From: Pseudomonas sp. A34-9
GTDB taxonomy: Bacteria > Pseudomonadota > Gammaproteobacteria > Pseudomonadales > Pseudomonadaceae
Length of the DNA: 64,000 nt
Direction: 5' to 3'
NCBI RefSeq assembly: GCF_029543085.1
Contig: NZ_CP119967.1
Location: forward strand, 6,455,001-6,519,000
Positions 19,544-34,771 of this stretch are shown piece after piece. The notes beneath the pieces were generated by a model, which worked only from the letters and a program-made list of their open reading frames with translations, did no database searches and was not told the origin of the DNA. Position numbers and translations under genes: made by a program. Position 1 is the first letter of the stretch, and the number at the start of each line of letters is the position of its first letter.

Positions 19544-19577
19544 GCAGGAGCAGCCGGAGGCTGCGATCTTTTGATCT
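19544..19577. repeat. Single REP unit
   Basis: One unpaired arm of the 2098 family with changes in the core (GAGCAGCCGGAGGCTGCGAT). It overlaps the 3' end of the COG0523 gene by two bases. Confidence 0.65.
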
Positions 19578-20541
19578 AATCCGCCCGGCATCCCGACAAT
19601 CCACGCTGCAACCCCTCAATATCCTGCGCCTCAGCAAAGATCAGCTCGATGCGCGAATCTTTGCGCCATTCACTGCTATGCCAAACCAACTCCGCATTCT
19701 CCGGCGCATTCGCCGAAACCCAGCCATCTGCGCAGTGGATAACCAGCTTCGCTCTCTTCCAATGAAGCCCGTTTAGCCAATCGGCGATCCGTGCCTTGTC
19801 GAACTTTTGCCCCGGATGCCAACGCCAACCGATACTCCAGCCACCCTCCTGGGCCTGACTCAAGCAGATCGGTATCGTCGGATCGCTCCAGATGGCCGGC
19901 ATTTGTCCTGATCCCTTGGGCACGATCAGACTGTCCAAACCATTGACCGCTTGCGCAGCCAGGCCGGGAAGTTCGCTCAGGGACAGTTGCGCCTGTTGCG
20001 TCCATATCAGCCTGACTGGCGGCAACAGGCTGGTTATTTTCTGCCGTTCACTTTCAGCAAGGTTTTCCGCCTTGTTCAGCAGCAACAAACCCGCACCGGC
20101 CAACGCTTCCTGCTGAGCTGCCGGCAATGCTTTTCCAGCCCGGAGCGCCTGAGCATCCAGCACCAGAACACACGGCTGCAGCGCCAGCACACCGAGCCAC
20201 GGCGCTTCATTCAATTGTTTAATCAACTGCGCCGGATGGCCCAACCCGGACGGTTCGATGAACAGCCGATCCGGCTTCGCCTTGCGCAACAACCGCCCGA
20301 GGCCGATCTGAAAAGGCGCGCCATTGACGCAGCACAGGCAGCCCCCGGCCACTTCGCCCAGTGCGATACCATCGGCATCACTCGCCAGCAGCGCGGCATC
20401 GAGGCCGATCTGGCCGAACTCGTTGATCAGCACCGCCCAGCGCTCGCCGGCCGACCGCTGAGCCATGAGCTGGCGAATCAGGCTGGTCTTGCCGGCACCC
20501 AAAGGGCCAGCAATGACATGGGTAGGAATGTTCTGCAACAT
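19576..20541 (-). CDS. COG0523/CobW-family GTPase (second metallochaperone)
   Basis: 321 residues from MLQNIPTHVIAG. Walker A GPLGAGKTS (12-20), the metal-site motif GCLCC (67-71) and ESTG-like EPSGLGHP mark the G3E GTPases that deliver metal ions. By order it matches P. aeruginosa PA5532. It is probably a zinc chaperone used under zinc limitation. Its start is only 30 bp from the oppositely oriented gene at 20572. It therefore most likely depends on readthrough from the zigA-DUF1826 transcript, or on a promoter inside the 20572 gene. Confidence 0.85.
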   Translation of the reverse strand: MLQNIPTHVIAGPLGAGKTSLIRQLMAQRSAGERWAVLINEFGQIGLDAALLASDADGIALGEVAGGCLCCVNGAPFQIGLGRLLRKAKPDRLFIEPSGLGHPAQLIKQLNEAPWLGVLALQPCVLVLDAQALRAGKALPAAQQEALAGAGLLLLNKAENLAESERQKITSLLPPVRLIWTQQAQLSLSELPGLAAQAVNGLDSLIVPKGSGQMPAIWSDPTIPICLSQAQEGGWSIGWRWHPGQKFDKARIADWLNGLHWKRAKLVIHCADGWVSANAPENAELVWHSSEWRKDSRIELIFAEAQDIEGLQRGLSGCRAD

Positions 20542-20571
20542 GACCGTGAGCTTTCTTGGGGGATTCAAAAG

Positions 20572-20928
20572 ATGCGTTGGATGGGATGGTCGTTGCTGTT
20601 GACGCTGCTGTCGAGCGAAGCGTGGGCTCAGGCCTGCGTAGTGCACAGTCAGGGCGAGCGGCTCGACGTCAAAGTCTGTCAGCAGAACCGCAATATTCCG
20701 CAGAAACTGTTCAACGACGGTTTCTGCCAGCCAACGCTGGCCGGACAGAAAGTCGAAGTGCAGTATGTCGATCAATGCCCGGGCGGAGCGTTCGGCGTGT
20801 GCAGCAACGCGCAAGTCGCCAATATGCCTTATCGCCAGGATATCCACTATTACGGCGTCGCCACTGATGCTGCATATCTGAAGCCGTACTGCGAAGGCCA
20901 GAGCCAGGGTTCGTGGCTCAAGCCTTGA
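20572..20928 (+). CDS. Small secreted cysteine-rich protein
   Basis: 118 residues. The signal peptide (MRWMGWSLLLTLLSSEAWA) has a likely cut after AWA. The mature part has six to seven Cys (ACVVHS, VKVCQQ, GFCQP, DQCPGG, GVCSN, PYCEG), suggesting disulphides in the periplasm. A GGGGG ribosome site lies 8 bases before the ATG. It sits antisense between two minus-strand zinc-limitation genes and ends 4 bp before the convergent DUF1826 gene. No metal-binding motif is clear; function unknown. Confidence 0.75.
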   Translation: MRWMGWSLLLTLLSSEAWAQACVVHSQGERLDVKVCQQNRNIPQKLFNDGFCQPTLAGQKVEVQYVDQCPGGAFGVCSNAQVANMPYRQDIHYYGVATDAAYLKPYCEGQSQGSWLKP

Positions 20929-20932
20929 GGCA

Positions 20933-21577
20933 TCAGCCGAGCCAGTCGAGGGTCAGTATCAGGCGACGCTCGCCCGCGCCCGGTTGCGACGAGCGGTGAA
21001 TCAGGCCGAAGCCTTCATTGCCATGCCATTTCTCGCCTTTCAACAGCGCCACGTCACCCCTTCCGAGTTGCTGGATGTGTATGTGCGGCTCGGCGTTGGC
21101 CTGCCCCAGTTGTTGTCGATCCATCGCGCCTTCCTTGAGCCATTGGCTGCCGACGCCGGCGTAGGTTGTGATCAGCCGCACCGGCACATGATCGACATGG
21201 AAGCGCGGGCACATGGCTTTATCCAGCAAGCGCAGGCGCAGGCCGATGCGCCGCGCACCGAGCAAGCAGGCGAAGGCGCTCACTAACCATTTCAGGTCGG
21301 CGAGGAAGCCCTCATAGCCTTCCAGATCGCGAAATCCTGAAGCCAGTCCGGTGAGATCAGGCTCCGCGTCCTCACTCGGCAACTCCAGGCACAACGACTC
21401 CGCCAGCGGTTCGTTGAGCGACAGAAGTAACTGGGCGAAATCGCTGATGTGCAACGGCAGTTGGCGTTGCCAGACGGCAAGATTGGTGTCGTCTTCGAGA
21501 ATTCGCGTCAGCGCCTTCGGTGTCGGGCCTTGATGCTGGTGGCGCGTACGGTTCTGCTGCAGTTTAAGCGCGAGCAT
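20933..21577 (-). CDS. DUF1826 domain protein
   Basis: 214 residues from [14 protein letters not shown]. It has the features of DUF1826: DKAMCPRFHVDHVPVRLITTY, then HIQQLGRGDVALLKGEKW and a final IHRSSQ segment. The His/Asp/His pattern within a small beta fold suggests a cupin-like or 2OG-oxygenase-like metal site (inference). Its ATG shares one base with the zigA stop, so it is translationally coupled. The family typically accompanies Zur-regulated COG0523 genes. Confidence 0.83.
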   Translation of the reverse strand: MLALKLQQNRTRHQHQGPTPKALTRILEDDTNLAVWQRQLPLHISDFAQLLLSLNEPLAESLCLELPSEDAEPDLTGLASGFRDLEGYEGFLADLKWLVSAFACLLGARRIGLRLRLLDKAMCPRFHVDHVPVRLITTYAGVGSQWLKEGAMDRQQLGQANAEPHIHIQQLGRGDVALLKGEKWHGNEGFGLIHRSSQPGAGERRLILTLDWLG

Positions 21578-22782
21578 CAGGCGGCCTCCTCGTGCCAAGG
21601 ACCGAACGGATCTGGCAACAATCGCCAGCCTTCGACACCGAGCGCCATTTCTTCATCGGTGAGCTGGCAAGCATCGAGTTCGGCAGAGAGCTCTAGGAAA
21701 TCGATGTTCTGCCCGATGAACACCAGTTCCTGGCGGCAATCTCCTACGCTCGGCTCCCAGTTTTCCATGATGGCTGCGGTGCTTTCCTGATCTTGCGGCC
21801 ATTGGTTTTTTGGCACAAAACGCCACCAGCGTCCGGCAAAACCGTGGCGCATCAATCCGCCGGCCTGCGACCAGCTACCGGCGTCGGTGGGTTTGCTCGC
21901 GAGCCAGAAGAAGCCTTTGGAGCGCAGCAGTTTGCCGTTCAGCCACGGACGATCGATGAAGCTGAAAAAGCGTTGCGGGTGAAACGGGCGACGCGCGCGG
22001 TACGCGGTTGAAGCGATGCCGTACTCGTCAGTTTCCGGCACGTGCTCACCGCGCAACTCCAGTAGCCAGCCTGGTGCTTGCGCGGCCCTTTCAAAGTCGA
22101 AACGACCGGTATTGAGGACTTTCTCCAGCGGCACCTCGCCCATCACCATCGGGATGATTTCGGCTTGGGCATTAAGGCGTTTGAGGATGGCGATCAGCTC
22201 TTCCCGCTCGCACTGGCTGATCAAGTCGATCTTGCTGATCAACAGCACGTCGGCGAATTCGATTTGTTCGATCAACAGGTCGGTGATGGAGCGTTCGTCT
22301 TCCTCGCCGAGAATCTCGCCCCGGGAGGCGAGGCTTTCCGCTGCCTGGTAGTCCGGCAGAAAATTCATACCGTCAACTACAGTGACCATAGTATCGAGGC
22401 GCGCGATGTCGGAGAGGCTTTGGCCCTGCTCATCACGGAAGGTAAAGGTTTCGGCCACGGGCAATGGTTCTGAGATTCCGGTGGATTCGATGAGCAAATA
22501 ATCGAAGCGGCCCTCGCGAGCGAGTTTGCTGACTTCTTCGAGCAGATCTTCGCGTAACGTACAGCAGATACAGCCATTGCTCATTTCCACGATTTTTTCT
22601 TCTGCGCGGTTCAGGCTGACATCTCGCTGTACTTCGCTGCCATCGATATTGATCTCGCTCATATCATTGACGATGACGGCTACACGAAGTCCCTTGCGAT
22701 TACGTAGTACGTAATTCAAAAGCGTACTCTTTCCAGCACCCAGAAATCCTGAAAGTACGGTGACGGGCAACTCGGCTGACAT
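21577..22782 (-). CDS. zigA: Zinc metallochaperone GTPase ZigA
   Basis: 401 residues from [18 protein letters not shown] upstream supports this ATG over the frame's first ATG at 22848. Walker [10 protein letters not shown] (12-20), GCICC (70-74), ESTG and SKID are the G3E GTPase motifs, and the C-terminal CobW domain contains HPQRFFSF and GFFWLA. It delivers zinc to client enzymes when zinc is scarce. A perfect Zur-type palindrome lies 128 bp upstream. It is first gene of zigA-DUF1826 and corresponds to PA5535. Confidence 0.93.
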
Positions 22783-22909
22783 TGGATAATCCTCTTTAAA
22801 TGGCAGCCGATTAGCGTTTTGCTTGCGCTTGGCGTTTTTATGTTTCATGCGAAGGGCTCGCTGAAAATAAACGCTTGAAATCGGCCCGCTCAGGCTCGGT
22901 TAGTATTTA

Positions 22910-23001: not shown

Positions 23002-23379
23002 ATGAAAACTGCGCTGAAATCTGCGTTGTTGAGCCTTGGATTGTTGATGATCGGCAACGCATCAGCTCAGGTACCGGCACTTGCGACCTGCACACGCAGC
23101 GCAAATCTGTTGGCCTGCGTCGATGCCGACGGCAACGCCTACAGTGTCAACACCGTCGGCAGCACGCTTTATCTGCGTGGATTTGAAAAAACTGGCCAGC
23201 GTTATTGGGCGCAAACCAACAGCCGTTTCGGCCAACTGACGTTCTTCACCGGCATTGCTTCTGACGGCGAAGCCTGGGTGGGCTACACCCGACGTGTTGG
23301 CTGGACGACGATCAATCGCTTCTCCAGTTCAGGCGGCAGCAGCGCAAAGTTCACCTGCAGCCGGATTACCGGATGTTAG
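23002..23379 (+). CDS. Small secreted protein, predicted Zur-controlled
   Basis: 125 residues. The signal peptide (MKTALKSALLSLGLLMIGNASA) is cut before QVPALATC. The mature part has four Cys, many Ser/Thr/Gly and aromatic residues, and ends CSRITGC. It corresponds by place to a PA5537-like small gene. It is reached from the Zur box at 22910. Its last codons overlap the convergent amidase stop by 4 bp. Periplasmic; function unknown. Confidence 0.78.
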   Translation: MKTALKSALLSLGLLMIGNASAQVPALATCTRSANLLACVDADGNAYSVNTVGSTLYLRGFEKTGQRYWAQTNSRFGQLTFFTGIASDGEAWVGYTRRVGWTTINRFSSSGGSSAKFTCSRITGC

Positions 23380-24578
23380 ACCTGTGCTTTTTGCTGCTCT
23401 TGCTGCCAGGCAAGGTAGCTGTCAACGGGAGGATTCTTTTCAAAATAGCGCTGCAATCCTTTAAACAACCCGTCTGCCACGGCTTGCTGATGCCGAGCGG
23501 TGACCAGACGCTGACTGTCGCGCACATTGGAAATGAAGCCGGTTTCCACCAGAATTGAAGGCACATCGGGTGATTTCAGTACTGCAAAACCCGCTTGCTC
23601 CACACGCTTCTGGTGCAGAGTGGTGATACCGGCAAGACTGCTCAGCACCGTGCTGCCAAGCTGCAAACTGGCGGCGATTGTCGCGTTCATCGACATGTCG
23701 AGAATCACCCCGGCGAGCATCGGATCCTTGTCCTTCAAATTGAGCAGACTTGTCGCACCGAGCAGGTCTGCACCATTCTCTCGCTGCGCCATGAAGCGCG
23801 CAGTCGCAGAAGTCGCGCCACCCTCGGACAAGCAATAAACCGATGCGCCAGAAGCGGTCAGGCGCGGCGCCGCGTCGGCATGTACCGAGATAAACATGTC
23901 GGCCTTGTGCTGCCTGGCGATCTCCACACGCTTGCGCAACGGAACGAAAAACTCGTCATTGCGCACCAGTTTTACGTCAAAGCCTTTCTCTTTTTTCAGG
24001 CGTTTAGCGAGCAACTGCGCGATGGAAAGCACTACATCTTTTTCCCGTTCGCCCTTGGCGCCAACCGCACCGGGGTCCTTGCCGCCATGTCCCGGGTCGA
24101 CGACTACGATGATGTCGCGCTTCGGATGAGCACTAATCTGCGGTGTTTCACGTGGAACCTTTGGGGCTATTGCCATCGGTTTCGCGCTGACCAAATCCAG
24201 AACCAAGCGATGGCTTTGCCCATTCTGCGGCGCCAAAAGGAAACTATTCAGCAGCACGGGTTTGCTCAGGTCGAGAACAATCCTCGTATTTCCCAGACCA
24301 AACGGCCCGGATCGGATCGACCGTATAACCGAGCCATCTAGTGCCATCTGACTGAAATCTCCGCTCAAGCTAGCGCCACTCACGTCAATGATTAGCCGTT
24401 CCGGCGCACTGAGCGTGAAGGTCTTGTAGCGGACCGGGCCACTCAAATCGAACACCAACCGCAGCTTTTCCTCAGATCGCCAAAGTCGCGCCTGACGAAT
24501 TTGCGTAGCCGATACGCTGAAGGGCAAAACGAAAGCAGCGCTGGCCAAAATCAGATTGAGCACCTGACGTCTGTGCAT
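23376..24578 (-). CDS. N-acetylmuramoyl-L-alanine amidase (AmiA/B/C type)
   Basis: 400 residues. The N-terminus has a twin Arg (MHRRQVLNLIL) followed by a hydrophobic stretch ending in SVSA, so Tat export is plausible, as for E. coli AmiA and AmiC. An AMIN peptidoglycan-binding domain (~28-125) precedes Amidase_3 (~155-385), with zinc ligands in VDPGHGGKD and SVHADA and the catalytic Glu in LVETGFISN. It splits septal peptidoglycan in the periplasm. It is divergent from folE2 with a Zur box between, like PA5538, and is presumably a zinc-limitation isoform. A parS-like site lies inside the gene at 24144. Confidence 0.92.
   Translation of the reverse strand: MHRRQVLNLILASAAFVLPFSVSATQIRQARLWRSEEKLRLVFDLSGPVRYKTFTLSAPERLIIDVSGASLSGDFSQMALDGSVIRSIRSGPFGLGNTRIVLDLSKPVLLNSFLLAPQNGQSHRLVLDLVSAKPMAIAPKVPRETPQISAHPKRDIIVVVDPGHGGKDPGAVGAKGEREKDVVLSIAQLLAKRLKKEKGFDVKLVRNDEFFVPLRKRVEIARQHKADMFISVHADAAPRLTASGASVYCLSEGGATSATARFMAQRENGADLLGATSLLNLKDKDPMLAGVILDMSMNATIAASLQLGSTVLSSLAGITTLHQKRVEQAGFAVLKSPDVPSILVETGFISNVRDSQRLVTARHQQAVADGLFKGLQRYFEKNPPVDSYLAWQQEQQKAQV
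24144..24159. other. parS-like ParB-binding site 1
   Basis: TGTTTCACGTGGAACC, one base away from a symmetric GTTYCACGTGRAAC core. It lies within the amidase gene, where the minus strand encodes VPRET. ParB binds such sites to nucleate the origin partition complex. Confidence 0.8.
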
Positions 24579-24617
24579 ATGAAAACCCGTTCATGAAAAA
24601 GACATAGTGATTTGAAT

Positions 24618-24632
24618 TGTTATAATGTAACA
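24618..24632. promoter_or_regulatory. Zur box (amidase / folE2 divergent promoter)
   Basis: TGTTATAATGTAACA is a Zur-type palindrome with one mismatched pair. It contains a perfect TATAAT (-10) on the plus strand at 24621-24626, for folE2. It lies 40 bp from the amidase start. Confidence 0.82.
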
Positions 24633-24662
24633 TCGAATTGAATCACCATGATGGTCCCGAAC

Positions 24663-25559
24663 ATGAATTCGCTTTCACTCCCGGATATTGCTGCGCAGGC
24701 CACTCGCCAAGTTTTGCCACTCGAATGGGTAGGCATGCACGGCATCGCATTACCTGTTTTGTTGGAAGGCCAACACCTGAGTGCCAAGGCTGATGCTGGA
24801 GTGAATCTGGATGACGGCGAGGCGCGTGGCATTCACATGTCGCGGCTGTATTTGGCTCTGGAAGCGCTCGAACATGAGCGTCTGACACCCGCCCTTCTGC
24901 ACCAGGTACTCAAGCGTTTTCTGGAAAGTCACGAAGGTTTATCCAACCGTGCTTACCTGAATATTCACACCGATCTGCTGATTAAAAGGCCTGCGTTAGT
25001 CAGTCCATTGGCTGGCTGGAAATCCTATCCAACGAGAATTTCGGCAAGCCTGAAAAGCAATATGTTCCACGTGGAACTGAAAATTGAAGTGCCCTACTCT
25101 TCCACTTGCCCTTGCTCCGCGGCTTTGGCGCGGCAGTTGATCCAGCAACAATTCATCAACGACTTCGCCAACAAAGGCCTTCAGCACGCCGACGTTCTGG
25201 CTTGGTTAGGCTCGACACACGGCATCGTTGCCACGCCTCACAGTCAGCGCAGCACCGCGCAACTGCATCTACATCTCGACGAGTTCATAGATGAGCTCCC
25301 ATTGAGCGTGATCATCAATGACGCCGAAGCGGCCCTTGGCACCGCCGTACAGACCGCAGTGAAACGCGCGGACGAACAAGCCTTCGCCCTCGCCAACGGC
25401 CAGAACCTGATGTTCTGTGAAGACGCAGCGCGCCGTCTAAATCTGGCACTGCGTCGCACCCCGGGAGTCCGTGCATTCCATCTGCGAGTGATTCACGCCG
25501 AAAGCCTGCACGCCCATGACGCCATCGCCGAAAGCCACTGGCAGCGTGAGCAAGCATGA
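24663..25559 (+). CDS. folE2: GTP cyclohydrolase FolE2 (type IB, zinc-independent)
   Basis: 298 residues from MNSLSLPDIA; an in-frame ATG at 24648 adds 5. Type IB cyclohydrolase motifs are WVGMHGIALPV, ARGIHMSRLYLAL and the catalytic-Cys segment PYSSTCPCSAALA. It replaces zinc-dependent FolE1 in making dihydroneopterin triphosphate from GTP when zinc is scarce. It is first gene of an operon with the ABC importer (4-bp ATGA overlap). A Zur box precedes it, and a parS-like site is embedded at 25063. Confidence 0.95.
   Translation: MNSLSLPDIAAQATRQVLPLEWVGMHGIALPVLLEGQHLSAKADAGVNLDDGEARGIHMSRLYLALEALEHERLTPALLHQVLKRFLESHEGLSNRAYLNIHTDLLIKRPALVSPLAGWKSYPTRISASLKSNMFHVELKIEVPYSSTCPCSAALARQLIQQQFINDFANKGLQHADVLAWLGSTHGIVATPHSQRSTAQLHLHLDEFIDELPLSVIINDAEAALGTAVQTAVKRADEQAFALANGQNLMFCEDAARRLNLALRRTPGVRAFHLRVIHAESLHAHDAIAESHWQREQA
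25063..25078. other. parS-like ParB-binding site 2
   Basis: TGTTCCACGTGGAACT contains the perfect 14-base palindrome GTTCCACGTGGAAC, the Pseudomonas parS core. It lies inside folE2, where it encodes MFHVEL. Confidence 0.88.
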
Positions 25560-26224
25560 TCCGCTGCCAATCGCTGAGTTGGGGCGCGCCCGGCCAACCA
25601 CTGACTGCGCCACTGAGCCTCGAGCTCGACAGCGGCAGCCTGACGGCAATCATCGGCGCCAACGGCTGTGGCAAAAGCAGCCTGCTGAAAGTGATCGCCG
25701 GGCTGCAAAAACCATTGGCCGGCAATGTCGGCCTGAGTGTTCCACGTCAAAGCGGATTGTCCTTCCTGCCCCAGCAACAACATCTGGATCGTCAATTCCC
25801 CATCAGCCTCGAAGAACTGGTTGCCGCTGGTTTCTGGGGACGAAGACTATCGACCCAACTACGAAACCAGCGCCTGAAAGATGCACTGGCGAACTGGCAC
25901 CTGAGTGGACTCGAGCATCGTCCCCTCATGGCTCTGTCCGGTGGCGAACTGCAACGCGCCCTGCTCGCTCGGCTGAGCCTGACCGACGCGCCCGTGCTGC
26001 TGCTCGACGAACCCCACGCCGCGCTCGATGAATCCGGTCAGCAGTTGCTCTGGCAGCACATCCACACCTGGCATGGTGAAGGGCGAACGCTGATCGTGGT
26101 GTGCCACGACCTTGCCGCCGTGCGCCAACACATACCACAAACCTTGCTGATCAAAAACAGCCAGTGCGTGTTCGGCGCGAGCGTCGAGCTGATCCAGCAA
26201 ACACCTCGCACGCAGGTGGCCTAA
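25556..26224 (+). CDS. Metal ABC transporter ATPase (ZnuC-like)
   Basis: 222 residues. Walker A GANGCGKSS, Q-loop LPQQQHLDRQFP (typical of ZnuC/MntB), signature LSGGELQRALLARL, Walker B VLLLDEPHAALD and switch His (VVCHDL) are all present. It energises the permease encoded next. It starts within folE2 (ATGA) and its stop shares a base with the permease ATG. Confidence 0.92.
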   Translation: MIRCQSLSWGAPGQPLTAPLSLELDSGSLTAIIGANGCGKSSLLKVIAGLQKPLAGNVGLSVPRQSGLSFLPQQQHLDRQFPISLEELVAAGFWGRRLSTQLRNQRLKDALANWHLSGLEHRPLMALSGGELQRALLARLSLTDAPVLLLDEPHAALDESGQQLLWQHIHTWHGEGRTLIVVCHDLAAVRQHIPQTLLIKNSQCVFGASVELIQQTPRTQVA

Positions 26225-31814: not shown

Positions 31815-33725
31815 TCAGACGATTTCCTCCTTGAGCTTTAACAACGGCTCCTGAAATCGCAGCAAGCGCCCGGCATTGCCCAGCACCAGCAGCGTGCTCA
31901 GGTTGTGTAGCAGCGCGGCGATCATCGCCCCGGCAGCGCCAAGCCAGCCGAATGCAGCGAACAGGACGATGGCCAGCGTCCAGCCCAGTCCGATCACCAC
32001 GTTGACTTGCAATGTCCGGCGACACTGGCGACTGAGCCGCACACAGGTGCCGAGCCGGCGCAAATCGCTGCCGATCAGCACGATGTCAGCCGAGGCCAAT
32101 GCGATGTCGGCACCACCCGCGCCCATCGCCACACCGACCACGCCTGCCTTGAGCGCGAGGGAATCATTAATGCCGTCACCGACCACCATTGGCCGGAAAC
32201 CATTGTCGATTTCCTTGAGCACGCGATTGAGTTTGTCCTCGGGCAAGGCCTGGGCTTCGACCTCATACAAACCGACCTCCCTGGCGAGCGACCGGGCCAC
32301 GCTTTGACGATCGCCGGTCAGCAGCAATTGCCGTCCGAGCCCCAACTCACGCAATTCGTCGAGGGCGAAACGGGCTTCCGGTTTAACCGTGTCGGCGAGC
32401 AATAGCCAAGCGAGGAATTCCCCGTTCAATGCCAGCCCGGCGATGGGGCCATCGTGATCGGGGACCGTTGTCGTGGTGATGCCCAGTTGCGCGAACAATT
32501 CCGGCCGACCGAGCGCCGCTTCGCCCTGCCCGGTCATGGCGACAACACCAAGGCCCTGACGCTCGTGAATATCACTCAGCGCCAGACATTGATCCTGACT
32601 GACCAAGCCTGCGAGCGCACGACTGACCGGGTGACTGCTCGCCGCGCCGAGGCTGGCGGCAAGCGCCATGACCACAGACGACTCTGCTTGCGGGCTGTTG
32701 ATCGACTGCAAGCGCAATGTGCCGTAAGTCAGCGTCCCGGTTTTATCGACGACCAGCGATGTCAGGTCCGCCAGTTCTTCGAGGAACGCCGAACTGCGAA
32801 TCAAAATCCCGTGACGCGCTGCCACCGCGACACCGGCAATCGCCGTCGCCGGAGCGGACAACACCAACGCGCACGGACACGCTGCCACCAACACCGCGAG
32901 CATCGCTTGCGCATCGTTGGTGATGAACCAGGTCACCGCTGCCAGCAACAACACCAGCACCATGTAGCTGCCGGCGTAACGTTCGAGCAAACGGGTGATC
33001 GGTGGCTTCGAGCGCTCGGCGTTCTGCATCAGCGCGATGACTTTGCCGAGGGTCGACTCATTGCCAGTGCGGGTCACTTCAATGCGCAGCAGGCCATCGA
33101 GGTTGATCGCGCCGCCGAACACCGTCATGCCGACAGCCGCCTCGACTGGCACAGACTCACCGGTAATCGAAGCCGTATCGAGACTGGCCTGGCCGGACAA
33201 AACCCGACCGTCCGCCGGCACCCGATCACCCGCGCGCACCTCAACGGTGTCGCCGGATTTCAGCGTGCCGTTGTCCACTTCAATGATCGAACCATCGGCC
33301 AGAAGCTTGCGCGCGTGACTGCGCGTCAGTTGGCCGAGCGCGTGAATCGCTTCCTGCGAACCGATCACGCTGCGCTCTTCCAGCACATGGCCGAAGATCA
33401 TGATGATCGGCAGCAGCGCCGCCGTCAGTAAGTCGCCGGTCGCCCACGCGCCGAGCATGGCCAGGGCAATCAGTTGATCGGTGATGCCGTGCAAACTTGG
33501 ATAGCGCAGGCTGTACCACGCCGAACGCATCACCGGGACGGCGACTAATAAAGAAGCAAAACCGAGCAGCAACTGACTGACGCCGGTTTGCTCAGGCACC
33601 AGCCAACGCCAGATCAAACCCAGACCCAGCAGACCCAATGCAAGCATCGCCAACGTCAGCTGGCGTGCAGCGCGGCGTTGTTCGGCCGAGGACAACAGGC
33701 TCGGTGCAGCGGTCGTCGCAGTCAT
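31815..33725 (-). CDS. P1B-type metal ATPase (HmtA-like, predicted zinc importer)
   Basis: 636 residues. There is no N-terminal heavy-metal-associated domain: the protein opens directly into membrane helices. The actuator motif is TGES, the membrane metal site CPC (283-285), the phosphorylation site DKTGTLT (Asp327), the HP motif SSHPVSRA and the hinge GDGINDS. Order and partners match P. aeruginosa hmtA (PA2435), reported to take up zinc and copper, which stands with PA2437-2439. It overlaps the preceding SPFH gene by 4 bp and is last in a Zur-box operon, which favours import over efflux. Confidence 0.9.
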   Translation of the reverse strand: MTATTAAPSLLSSAEQRRAARQLTLAMLALGLLGLGLIWRWLVPEQTGVSQLLLGFASLLVAVPVMRSAWYSLRYPSLHGITDQLIALAMLGAWATGDLLTAALLPIIMIFGHVLEERSVIGSQEAIHALGQLTRSHARKLLADGSIIEVDNGTLKSGDTVEVRAGDRVPADGRVLSGQASLDTASITGESVPVEAAVGMTVFGGAINLDGLLRIEVTRTGNESTLGKVIALMQNAERSKPPITRLLERYAGSYMVLVLLLAAVTWFITNDAQAMLAVLVAACPCALVLSAPATAIAGVAVAARHGILIRSSAFLEELADLTSLVVDKTGTLTYGTLRLQSINSPQAESSVVMALAASLGAASSHPVSRALAGLVSQDQCLALSDIHERQGLGVVAMTGQGEAALGRPELFAQLGITTTTVPDHDGPIAGLALNGEFLAWLLLADTVKPEARFALDELRELGLGRQLLLTGDRQSVARSLAREVGLYEVEAQALPEDKLNRVLKEIDNGFRPMVVGDGINDSLALKAGVVGVAMGAGGADIALASADIVLIGSDLRRLGTCVRLSRQCRRTLQVNVVIGLGWTLAIVLFAAFGWLGAAGAMIAALLHNLSTLLVLGNAGRLLRFQEPLLKLKEEIV

Positions 33726-34771
33726 TTACTGGCTCCCTGAATGATCAGGCGGGAATCGTCTTTCGGGTCGACCGTTGTGACCGATCCAGCTTGGCCGAGG
33801 ATCTTCGGCATGCGCTCGCGGTAAAGGCGCAGGAGCATTTGCGGGTCTGTACTTTTGGCCAGACTCGATACCGTTGCAGTGTCGGCCGTGGCTTTGGCCA
33901 AGCGTTCACTGGCCTGCGCGTGAGCGACTTGTAGCGCCCGATCGGCTTGTTCGTTGGCGGTCTGGGTGAGCTTTTCGGCATCGGTACGTGCGTTAGCCAC
34001 AGCTTTGTCGGCTTGCTGACTGGCAGTCAACACCGCGTTGAATGCGCTGATCGCCGGATCCGGCAGACTCGATTGCACATCGACTCGCGCCACTTCGATC
34101 CCGATGCCCTGCCCGCTCGCCTTCAACTCGGCCAAGCGCTTGTTGATGCCCTGCACCAGATCACCGCGCAATCGCTCACGGCGTTCGGCGGCCTGGCTGT
34201 CAGCGCCGATCAATTCAGGACGTGCGACCAGAATAGTGTCCAGATCCCTGGCGGCGGTCAGCGCTACGGCACTGCGAGTGACCAATCGATCGAGCGCCGG
34301 CAGCACATGATCGGCCTGCAATACAAAGTCGTATGGGTCAGTGACTTTGTAAAATACCCGCACATCCAGTTGCACCACACCGGCATCACCGGTCAATAAA
34401 TAACCAGACCCCGCCAGGGCATCGCTCAGTGGTGTGGCGAAGGAAGCGACCCGATCAGCCTTGAGTGCTTCATCGCTGCGCAACAGATTTTCCACCCGCC
34501 GCTCGATCACCCGATCCGCGGCCGGCAACAAAACCACCTGTTCGAACGGCTGCGGCCATGCCAACAACAGCCCGGCGTTCTGCACGCGATCCAGTGCACC
34601 AAAGTGCAAAACCACCGCACGATTCTGCGGATCGATCTGTCGCACATTGGAAAACGCCCAAGCCAATGCGGCCAACACCGTCACCGCATAAAGGGCAAGA
34701 AATGCCAAACGACCAGCCTGAATCCACGGGCTGTTTAGCGAATGTGTTCCACGTGGAACTTCTTCACTCAT
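33722..34771 (-). CDS. SPFH/HflC-like membrane protein
   Basis: 349 residues. One N-terminal membrane anchor (LAFLALYAVTVLAALAWAF, ~17-35) is followed by an SPFH/band 7 domain (~38-250; QIDPQNRAVVLHFGAL) and an Ala/Gln-rich coiled coil (~240-310). It is annotated in relatives as a protease modulator HflC, but hflX, hflK and the FtsH context are absent here. It is third of four genes with 4-bp overlaps, feeding into the P1B ATPase. Probably a scaffold oligomer around the transporter (inference). A parS-like site is at its 5' end. Confidence 0.87.
   Translation of the reverse strand: MSEEVPRGTHSLNSPWIQAGRLAFLALYAVTVLAALAWAFSNVRQIDPQNRAVVLHFGALDRVQNAGLLLAWPQPFEQVVLLPAADRVIERRVENLLRSDEALKADRVASFATPLSDALAGSGYLLTGDAGVVQLDVRVFYKVTDPYDFVLQADHVLPALDRLVTRSAVALTAARDLDTILVARPELIGADSQAAERRERLRGDLVQGINKRLAELKASGQGIGIEVARVDVQSSLPDPAISAFNAVLTASQQADKAVANARTDAEKLTQTANEQADRALQVAHAQASERLAKATADTATVSSLAKSTDPQMLLRLYRERMPKILGQAGSVTTVDPKDDSRLIIQGASK
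34745..34760. other. parS-like ParB-binding site 3
   Basis: TGTTCCACGTGGAACT, the same 16 bases as site 2, with perfect core GTTCCACGTGGAAC. It lies in codons 5-9 of the SPFH gene, where the minus strand reads VPRGT. Confidence 0.88.

Follow-up and report, generated by a model that had tools for sequence, protein, structure and literature searches.

Three 16-bp palindromes in the 64,000-nucleotide stretch of the Pseudomonas sp. A34-9 chromosome analysed here (the window; C1:6455001-6519000), together with a fourth site at the end of recF, are very probably parS sites, and the one inside folE2 is selected as DNA, not merely as protein code. Judged by sequence, the cluster is a genuine, DNA-selected set of coding-embedded parS sites, an element of a known type whose evolutionary signature is unusual. 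The explanation that we favour as a whole, with high confidence, is that the palindromes are chromosomal parS sites which would be loaded with ParB and serve in chromosome segregation, and that the DNA site appears to have fixed residues of the FolE2 protein.

An earlier note on this DNA, made from its letters alone, had named two parS-like 16-mers in the amidase and folE2 genes. Both are present, with the core GTTYCACGTGRAAC exact at 24145-24158 and 25064-25077, and a third match at 34746-34759 had been overlooked; 100 dinucleotide-preserving shuffles of the window gave no match to GTTYCACGTGRAAC. The first site (24144..24159, TGTTTCACGTGGAACC) lies in an amidase ORF (23376-24578, minus strand), where the coding strand reads GTT CCA CGT GAA AC (VPRET). 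The second (25063..25078, TGTTCCACGTGGAACT) lies in folE2 (24648-25559, plus strand) and reads, after a methionine, TTC CAC GTG GAA CTG (MFHVEL), FHVE being residues 140-143. The third (34745..34760, again TGTTCCACGTGGAACT) occupies codons 5-9 of an SPFH-domain gene (MSEEVPRGTHS). All three consist of the exact core within a 16-bp palindrome and have 2, 3 and 3 mismatches to TGTTTCACGTGAAACA. The two sites named earlier are indeed inside coding sequence, and they flank the divergent amidase/folE2 intergenic region, which holds a Zur-like box.

A search of the single 6,541,947-base contig with GTTNCACGTGNAAC returned four places, namely the three in the window and C1:4075, at the 3' end of an ORF read as recF; the control, the same pattern read backwards, matched once per strand in the whole genome. 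The dnaA gene starts at C1:339 by ORF reading, with its DnaA_N domain at C1:348. If the contig closes on itself, the window sites lie approximately 63.1, 62.2 and 52.5 kb to the left of dnaA, and the fourth site is 3.7 kb to its right. All four genomic sites are within 63 kb of dnaA in 6.54 Mb, a small number of copies clustered at oriC. The earlier placement of the window close to oriC holds for a circular contig, and the search and the distances revealed an oriC-biased palindrome, not the scatter across the chromosome that had been named as evidence against parS. The chromosome contains 22 other matches to TTYCAYGTNGAR, none of which carries TTYCACGTGGAA; we considered whether the rest of the genome avoids the site and dropped the idea, as 0/22 fits the low chance expectation for a 12-mer.

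The evidence for selection at the DNA level comes from folE2, which encodes a zinc-independent GTP cyclohydrolase of 303 aa (PF02649, GCHY-1, 4.3e-68; NCBIfam NF010200, 322.9 bits at a cut-off of 215). Genome contigs were scanned for folE2 relatives and the best 80 of 584 loci kept, all with Pseudomonas titles and two of them contigs of one assembly; TGTTCCACGTGGAACT is found inside folE2, at the FHVE codons, in 80/80. We tabulated codons in 80 rows, the window and 79 others after one duplicate was dropped, all being the closest relatives of the query. A residue shared by at least 76/80 rows was seen in 168 columns, and among these only F140, H141, V142 and E143 show a single codon throughout. 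Although the ORFs were located by means of the site, this leaves the count unbiased, since the site is present in all 80 loci. With columns 140-144 left out of the DNA tree, the four FHVE codons underwent 0 synonymous changes, whereas the other 55 amino-acid-invariant codons underwent 4-34 (median 18). When 249 genus genomes were searched for FHVELKIEV with degenerate codons, 21 of them held an exact match, all TTCCACGTGGAACT, with the codons after it varying freely.

Beyond these close relatives, the site and the residues come and go together. A genus sample of 79 genomes contained a folE2 match in 68, of which five belong to a distant subfamily (46-49% identity) and 63 are close. GTTYCACGTGGAACT is present in 57/63 close genes, and the remaining six read VNIE or SCMT at that place, so some lineages can dispense with the site. 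Of the 89 genomes in a family sample, 55 have folE2 and 40 have the close kind, with the site present in 19 and absent from 21 of these 40. Among 82 FolE2 proteins, FHVE occurs in 48/48 with the site but in only 1/34 without it; in the sole exception (L096), the palindrome is broken by a GAG codon for the glutamate. Codon use in orthologues lacking the site had been proposed as a check in the earlier note, and it strongly favours selection on DNA. Given the absence of synonymous change and the missing FHVE in 33 of the 34 site-free proteins, it is the DNA that is selected, and the site seems to dictate the FHVE residues of FolE2. The reverse order is possible, in which a protein that already had FHVE offered an easy place for a parS site. 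The distribution of the trait is explained by few shared ancestral events (3 changes, on a tree that included the trait's own columns), so the direction may be either, site imposing residues or residues pre-adapting the site.

The recF gene served as an internal control, since many relatives have a parS in the same FHVE frame there. Of 79 genus genomes, 72 were readable at this place, and the recF FHVEP stretch is a parS in 59 of them and has lost the palindrome in 13. The window's own genome is one with a broken copy (C1:3446; L005:3446-3457), reading TTC CAC GTC GAG, and has kept only the other recF site, downstream at C1:4075. Across the 11 genomes of the window's clade, the last two FHVE codons of recF vary between GTC and GTT and between GAA and GAG, whereas folE2 keeps GTG GAA in 11/11. 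Hence, the FHVE codons of recF drift once the palindrome is broken, unlike those of folE2. The first recF site is lost in 10/12 genomes with a second site near folE2 versus 3/60 without (Fisher p 3e-8), where the second-site set was read by eye, only the GTTTCACGTGGAAC form was counted, and the 7/79 genomes without a recF match were dropped. We rejected a trade-off between these two traits, as each requires 3 changes on the tree and there are 0 independent supporting pairs.

The other two window sites have a narrower distribution. The amidase ORF encodes an N-acetylmuramoyl-L-alanine amidase with AMIN and Amidase_3 domains (Pfam; no NCBIfam amidase model reaches its cut-off), and its parS lies in the linker between the two domains. 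The site is present in 16/48 loci that have the amidase, and 16/16 read GTT CCA CGT GAA AC inside a linker that is otherwise variable and rich in indels. This site, too, is selected as DNA. In 32/80 loci, the stretch retrieved showed no amidase on the strand where it was expected, and the folE2 parS is kept there. The third site is located at the N terminus of an HflK-like SPFH/Band 7 protein (33722..34771, minus strand; PF01145, with the HflK model below its cut-off). The genus sample holds 26 further GTTYCACGTGGAACT sites, the window's own third included, of which 16 were fetched and ten examined against the window genes. Five of these ten are inside the alignment of the SPFH orthologue, at its 5' end, and two abut it; of the other three, one is intergenic and two are in no window gene tested. 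The amidase and SPFH-gene sites, present in fewer relatives than the folE2 site, are local additions.

Distance from the origin does not sort the folE2 genes. Those with parS lie 21-74 kb from dnaA in the 18 of 19 family-sample genes that were measurable, and up to 69-129 kb in five further genus genomes, as judged by recF positions. Among the parS-free genes, 11/21 were measurable, at 42, 59, 77, 78, 87, 186, 198, 206, 216, 227 and 2033 kb; five of them (G312, G278, G319, G305 and G118) fall at 42-87 kb and six at 186 kb or more. Some of the values presuppose a circular contig. We rejected the rule that folE2 has parS only near oriC, as the distances with and without the site overlap. Lineage, not distance alone, separates the two kinds.

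Comparison with known systems places the sites close to those of Pseudomonas aeruginosa, whose parS was reported as TGTTCCACGTGGAACM by ChIP-seq (PMC5098823) and whose ParB reportedly binds GTTCCAC and GTTTCAC most among half-sites (PMC10419367). As described, parS1-parS4 of P. aeruginosa share a core, GTTCCACGTGGAAC, a low copy number and proximity to oriC with the sites studied here (PMC4368675, PMC5098823), and recF-adjacent sites are present in the window's relatives as well. The earlier reading of the sites as parS-like is thus backed by a P. aeruginosa-like palindrome, clustering at oriC and selection at the DNA level, and they stand as predicted parS sites. The P. aeruginosa sites differ in that those listed end in A or C, and that the reported ParB spreading zone extends from -10 to +30 kb (PMC10419367), whereas three of the four A34-9 sites, those hosted by folE2, the amidase gene and the SPFH gene, are on the opposite side at 52-63 kb. 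Where the P. aeruginosa consensus has A/C as its outer base, the folE2 and SPFH-gene sites have T, and the amidase site has GTTTCAC as one of its arms; the affinity of these sites for ParB may be lower. A parS of P. aeruginosa was reported to work, and to support growth, from about -200 to +450 kb of oriC (PMC5098823), which makes a position at -60 kb plausible. In Pseudomonas putida, three parS sites, TGTTCCACGTGGAACA, were described on the oriC contig (PMC7022226), from which the folE2 site of A34-9 differs by a T as the last base. In another lineage, chromosome I of Vibrio cholerae has a comparable cluster tens of kb from oriC, with parS at +63, +66 and +69 kb (PMC5098823). Sites of the Caulobacter crescentus cluster are reported inside essential or fitness-relevant genes (PMC5815017), so coding-embedded parS are already known, but the available text of that paper does not describe codon-level conservation or an effect on the host protein. 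Within the available text of the literature searched, we found no report of a parS in folE2; its prediction in a genome survey, such as the 2007 parS survey, is possible.

The genome contains one match to PF02195, the ParB family (C1:6529426-6529707), near the origin, in a gene approximately 12.5 kb left of the contig end. The ParB ORF spans 290 aa and has a ParA-like ORF directly upstream (read in L088, ParA named by eye only), and the nearest solved relatives of the protein by sequence are ParB proteins. The residues that determine parS-type specificity are reported as R173 and G201 in Caulobacter numbering (PMC7383237); the motifs GKSR and MGHAR are present in the ParB alignment, in which the pairing with Caulobacter ParB itself is not displayed. 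We infer the following mode of action. ParB would load as a CTP clamp at each parS site and slide onto flanking DNA, and ParB and ParA would carry the origin region into the daughter halves. Within one origin domain, the window sites would form a second loading zone 52-63 kb left of dnaA, separate from the recF site next to dnaA. As the palindromes lie in coding DNA, they would be tolerated only where a frame, FHVE or VPRxT, can be accommodated, and in folE2 selection on the DNA would be so strong that F140-H141-V142-E143 appear fixed by the site. Such a case offers natural material for studying how a DNA-binding site constrains or dictates the sequence of its host enzyme. It predicts that the FHVE codons behave as centromere DNA in the folE2 genes of this clade and drift freely in recF once the palindrome is broken.

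A bolder extension of the same reading, which we put forward tentatively and think less likely than not, is that the centromere is shifting in part from oriC towards the zinc locus and rewriting proteins as it goes. An old folE2 parS would have fixed F-H-V-E, later sites would have arisen beside it (in the amidase gene or the folE2 promoter, and in the SPFH gene), and one of the two recF parS sites would have decayed in G010 and, independently, in the window's clade, which may by now have put the principal ParB loading zone about 60 kb from oriC, over zinc-starvation genes. The cobW parS, in the same FHVE frame, would occur where folE2 has lost its site. In seven genomes in which folE2 has no parS or was unmatched (G118, G083, G012, G001, G008, G069 and G068), a GTPase gene holds a parS in its SFHVEL frame; one of these seven genes is a CobW equivalog above its NCBIfam cut-off, and the other six look alike by eye. 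The distal loci of this cobW type are L129, L173, L174, L186, L190, L191 and L192. In G029, which has no folE2 match (L187, L188), one parS lies in an oligopeptidase-like ORF (below cut-off) and a second in a small ORF beside a CobW-domain gene that resembles the one at 19576-20847 of the window. The observation also lends itself to studying how a bacterial centromere site moves between places.

The surroundings of folE2 raise the question of whether the partition complex affects expression of a zinc-starvation locus. Between the divergent amidase and folE2 genes lies a Zur-like palindrome, TGTTATAATGTAACA (24618..24632), identified by motif only, with 13/14 matches to what we take to be the Zur consensus; the best of 1000 shuffles of the intergenic region reached 11. 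A Zur-like box with at least 12/14 matches stands upstream of folE2 in 80/80 of the best 80 of 584 loci. Neighbouring genes encode a ZigA-type GTPase (21577-22848, above its NCBIfam cut-off), a second CobW-domain GTPase (19576-20847) and a zinc-type ABC ATPase (25556-26224, best NCBIfam match below cut-off), so that the locus looks like a zinc-starvation cluster. In P. aeruginosa, folE2 is reported to be under Zur regulation (PMC8531726). ParB of that species is described as repressing promoters next to the intergenic parS3/parS4, its excess as repressing the PA0011 and PA0013 promoters via these sites, and loss of ParB or parS as raising neighbouring genes (PMC5521831). By analogy, ParB control of the zinc genes, which the earlier note had proposed, is possible as a side effect. 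That the sites are kept mainly as ParB-dependent regulators, with ParB spreading damping or insulating the Zur-controlled divergent promoter, appears unlikely to us. This view gains from the repression at parS3/parS4, from the two sites flanking the promoter at 0.4-0.5 kb, and from G010, G041 and G044, in which a second site stands 98-109 bp upstream of folE2 instead of the amidase site. Against it, the Zur-like box occurs in 46/46 of the close folE2 genes checked, of which 19 have parS and 27 do not, the adjacent amidase is lost in 32/80 loci that keep the folE2 site, and the distal parS lies in a cobalamin-type cobW gene (one run against NCBIfam) in the seven genomes whose folE2 is parS-free or absent.

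Two further alternatives to ParB-loaded, DNA-selected parS sites fare worse. The assignment to ParB is made from sequence, which leaves room for some other reader of CACGTG palindromes, but we regard such a binder as highly improbable, since the half-sites and palindrome are the same as those reported for P. aeruginosa ParB (PMC4368675, PMC5098823), one PF02195 protein was found in the genome, and all four sites are near oriC. Plain coincidence, with FHVE a conserved peptide and TTC CAC GTG GAA its favoured codons, fits the exact frame of the site and codons (TTC, CAC, GTG) that look common in these genes, but it is barely credible in view of the near-absence of FHVE from site-free FolE2, the drift in recF, the position of all four palindromes and the invariant amidase codons in an unconserved linker, and as a sufficient explanation it is refuted by 0 versus 4-34 synonymous changes, barring a badly biased tree or choice of loci.

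Several minor observations concern the same regions in relatives. Second parS-like sites approximately 100 bp upstream of folE2, near the Zur-like box, were seen in L183, L184, L185 and L017, and in L017 this site is followed by repeated ACGTGGAACG units. In L130 (G034) and L189 (G001), from genomes without a folE2 match, GTTTCACGTGGAAC sites lie tens of kb from recF. Finally, a set of sigma-factor-, regulator- and TonB-receptor-like genes, named by eye, lies near the origin between the ParB gene and an mnmE-like ORF in L007:1745-5753.
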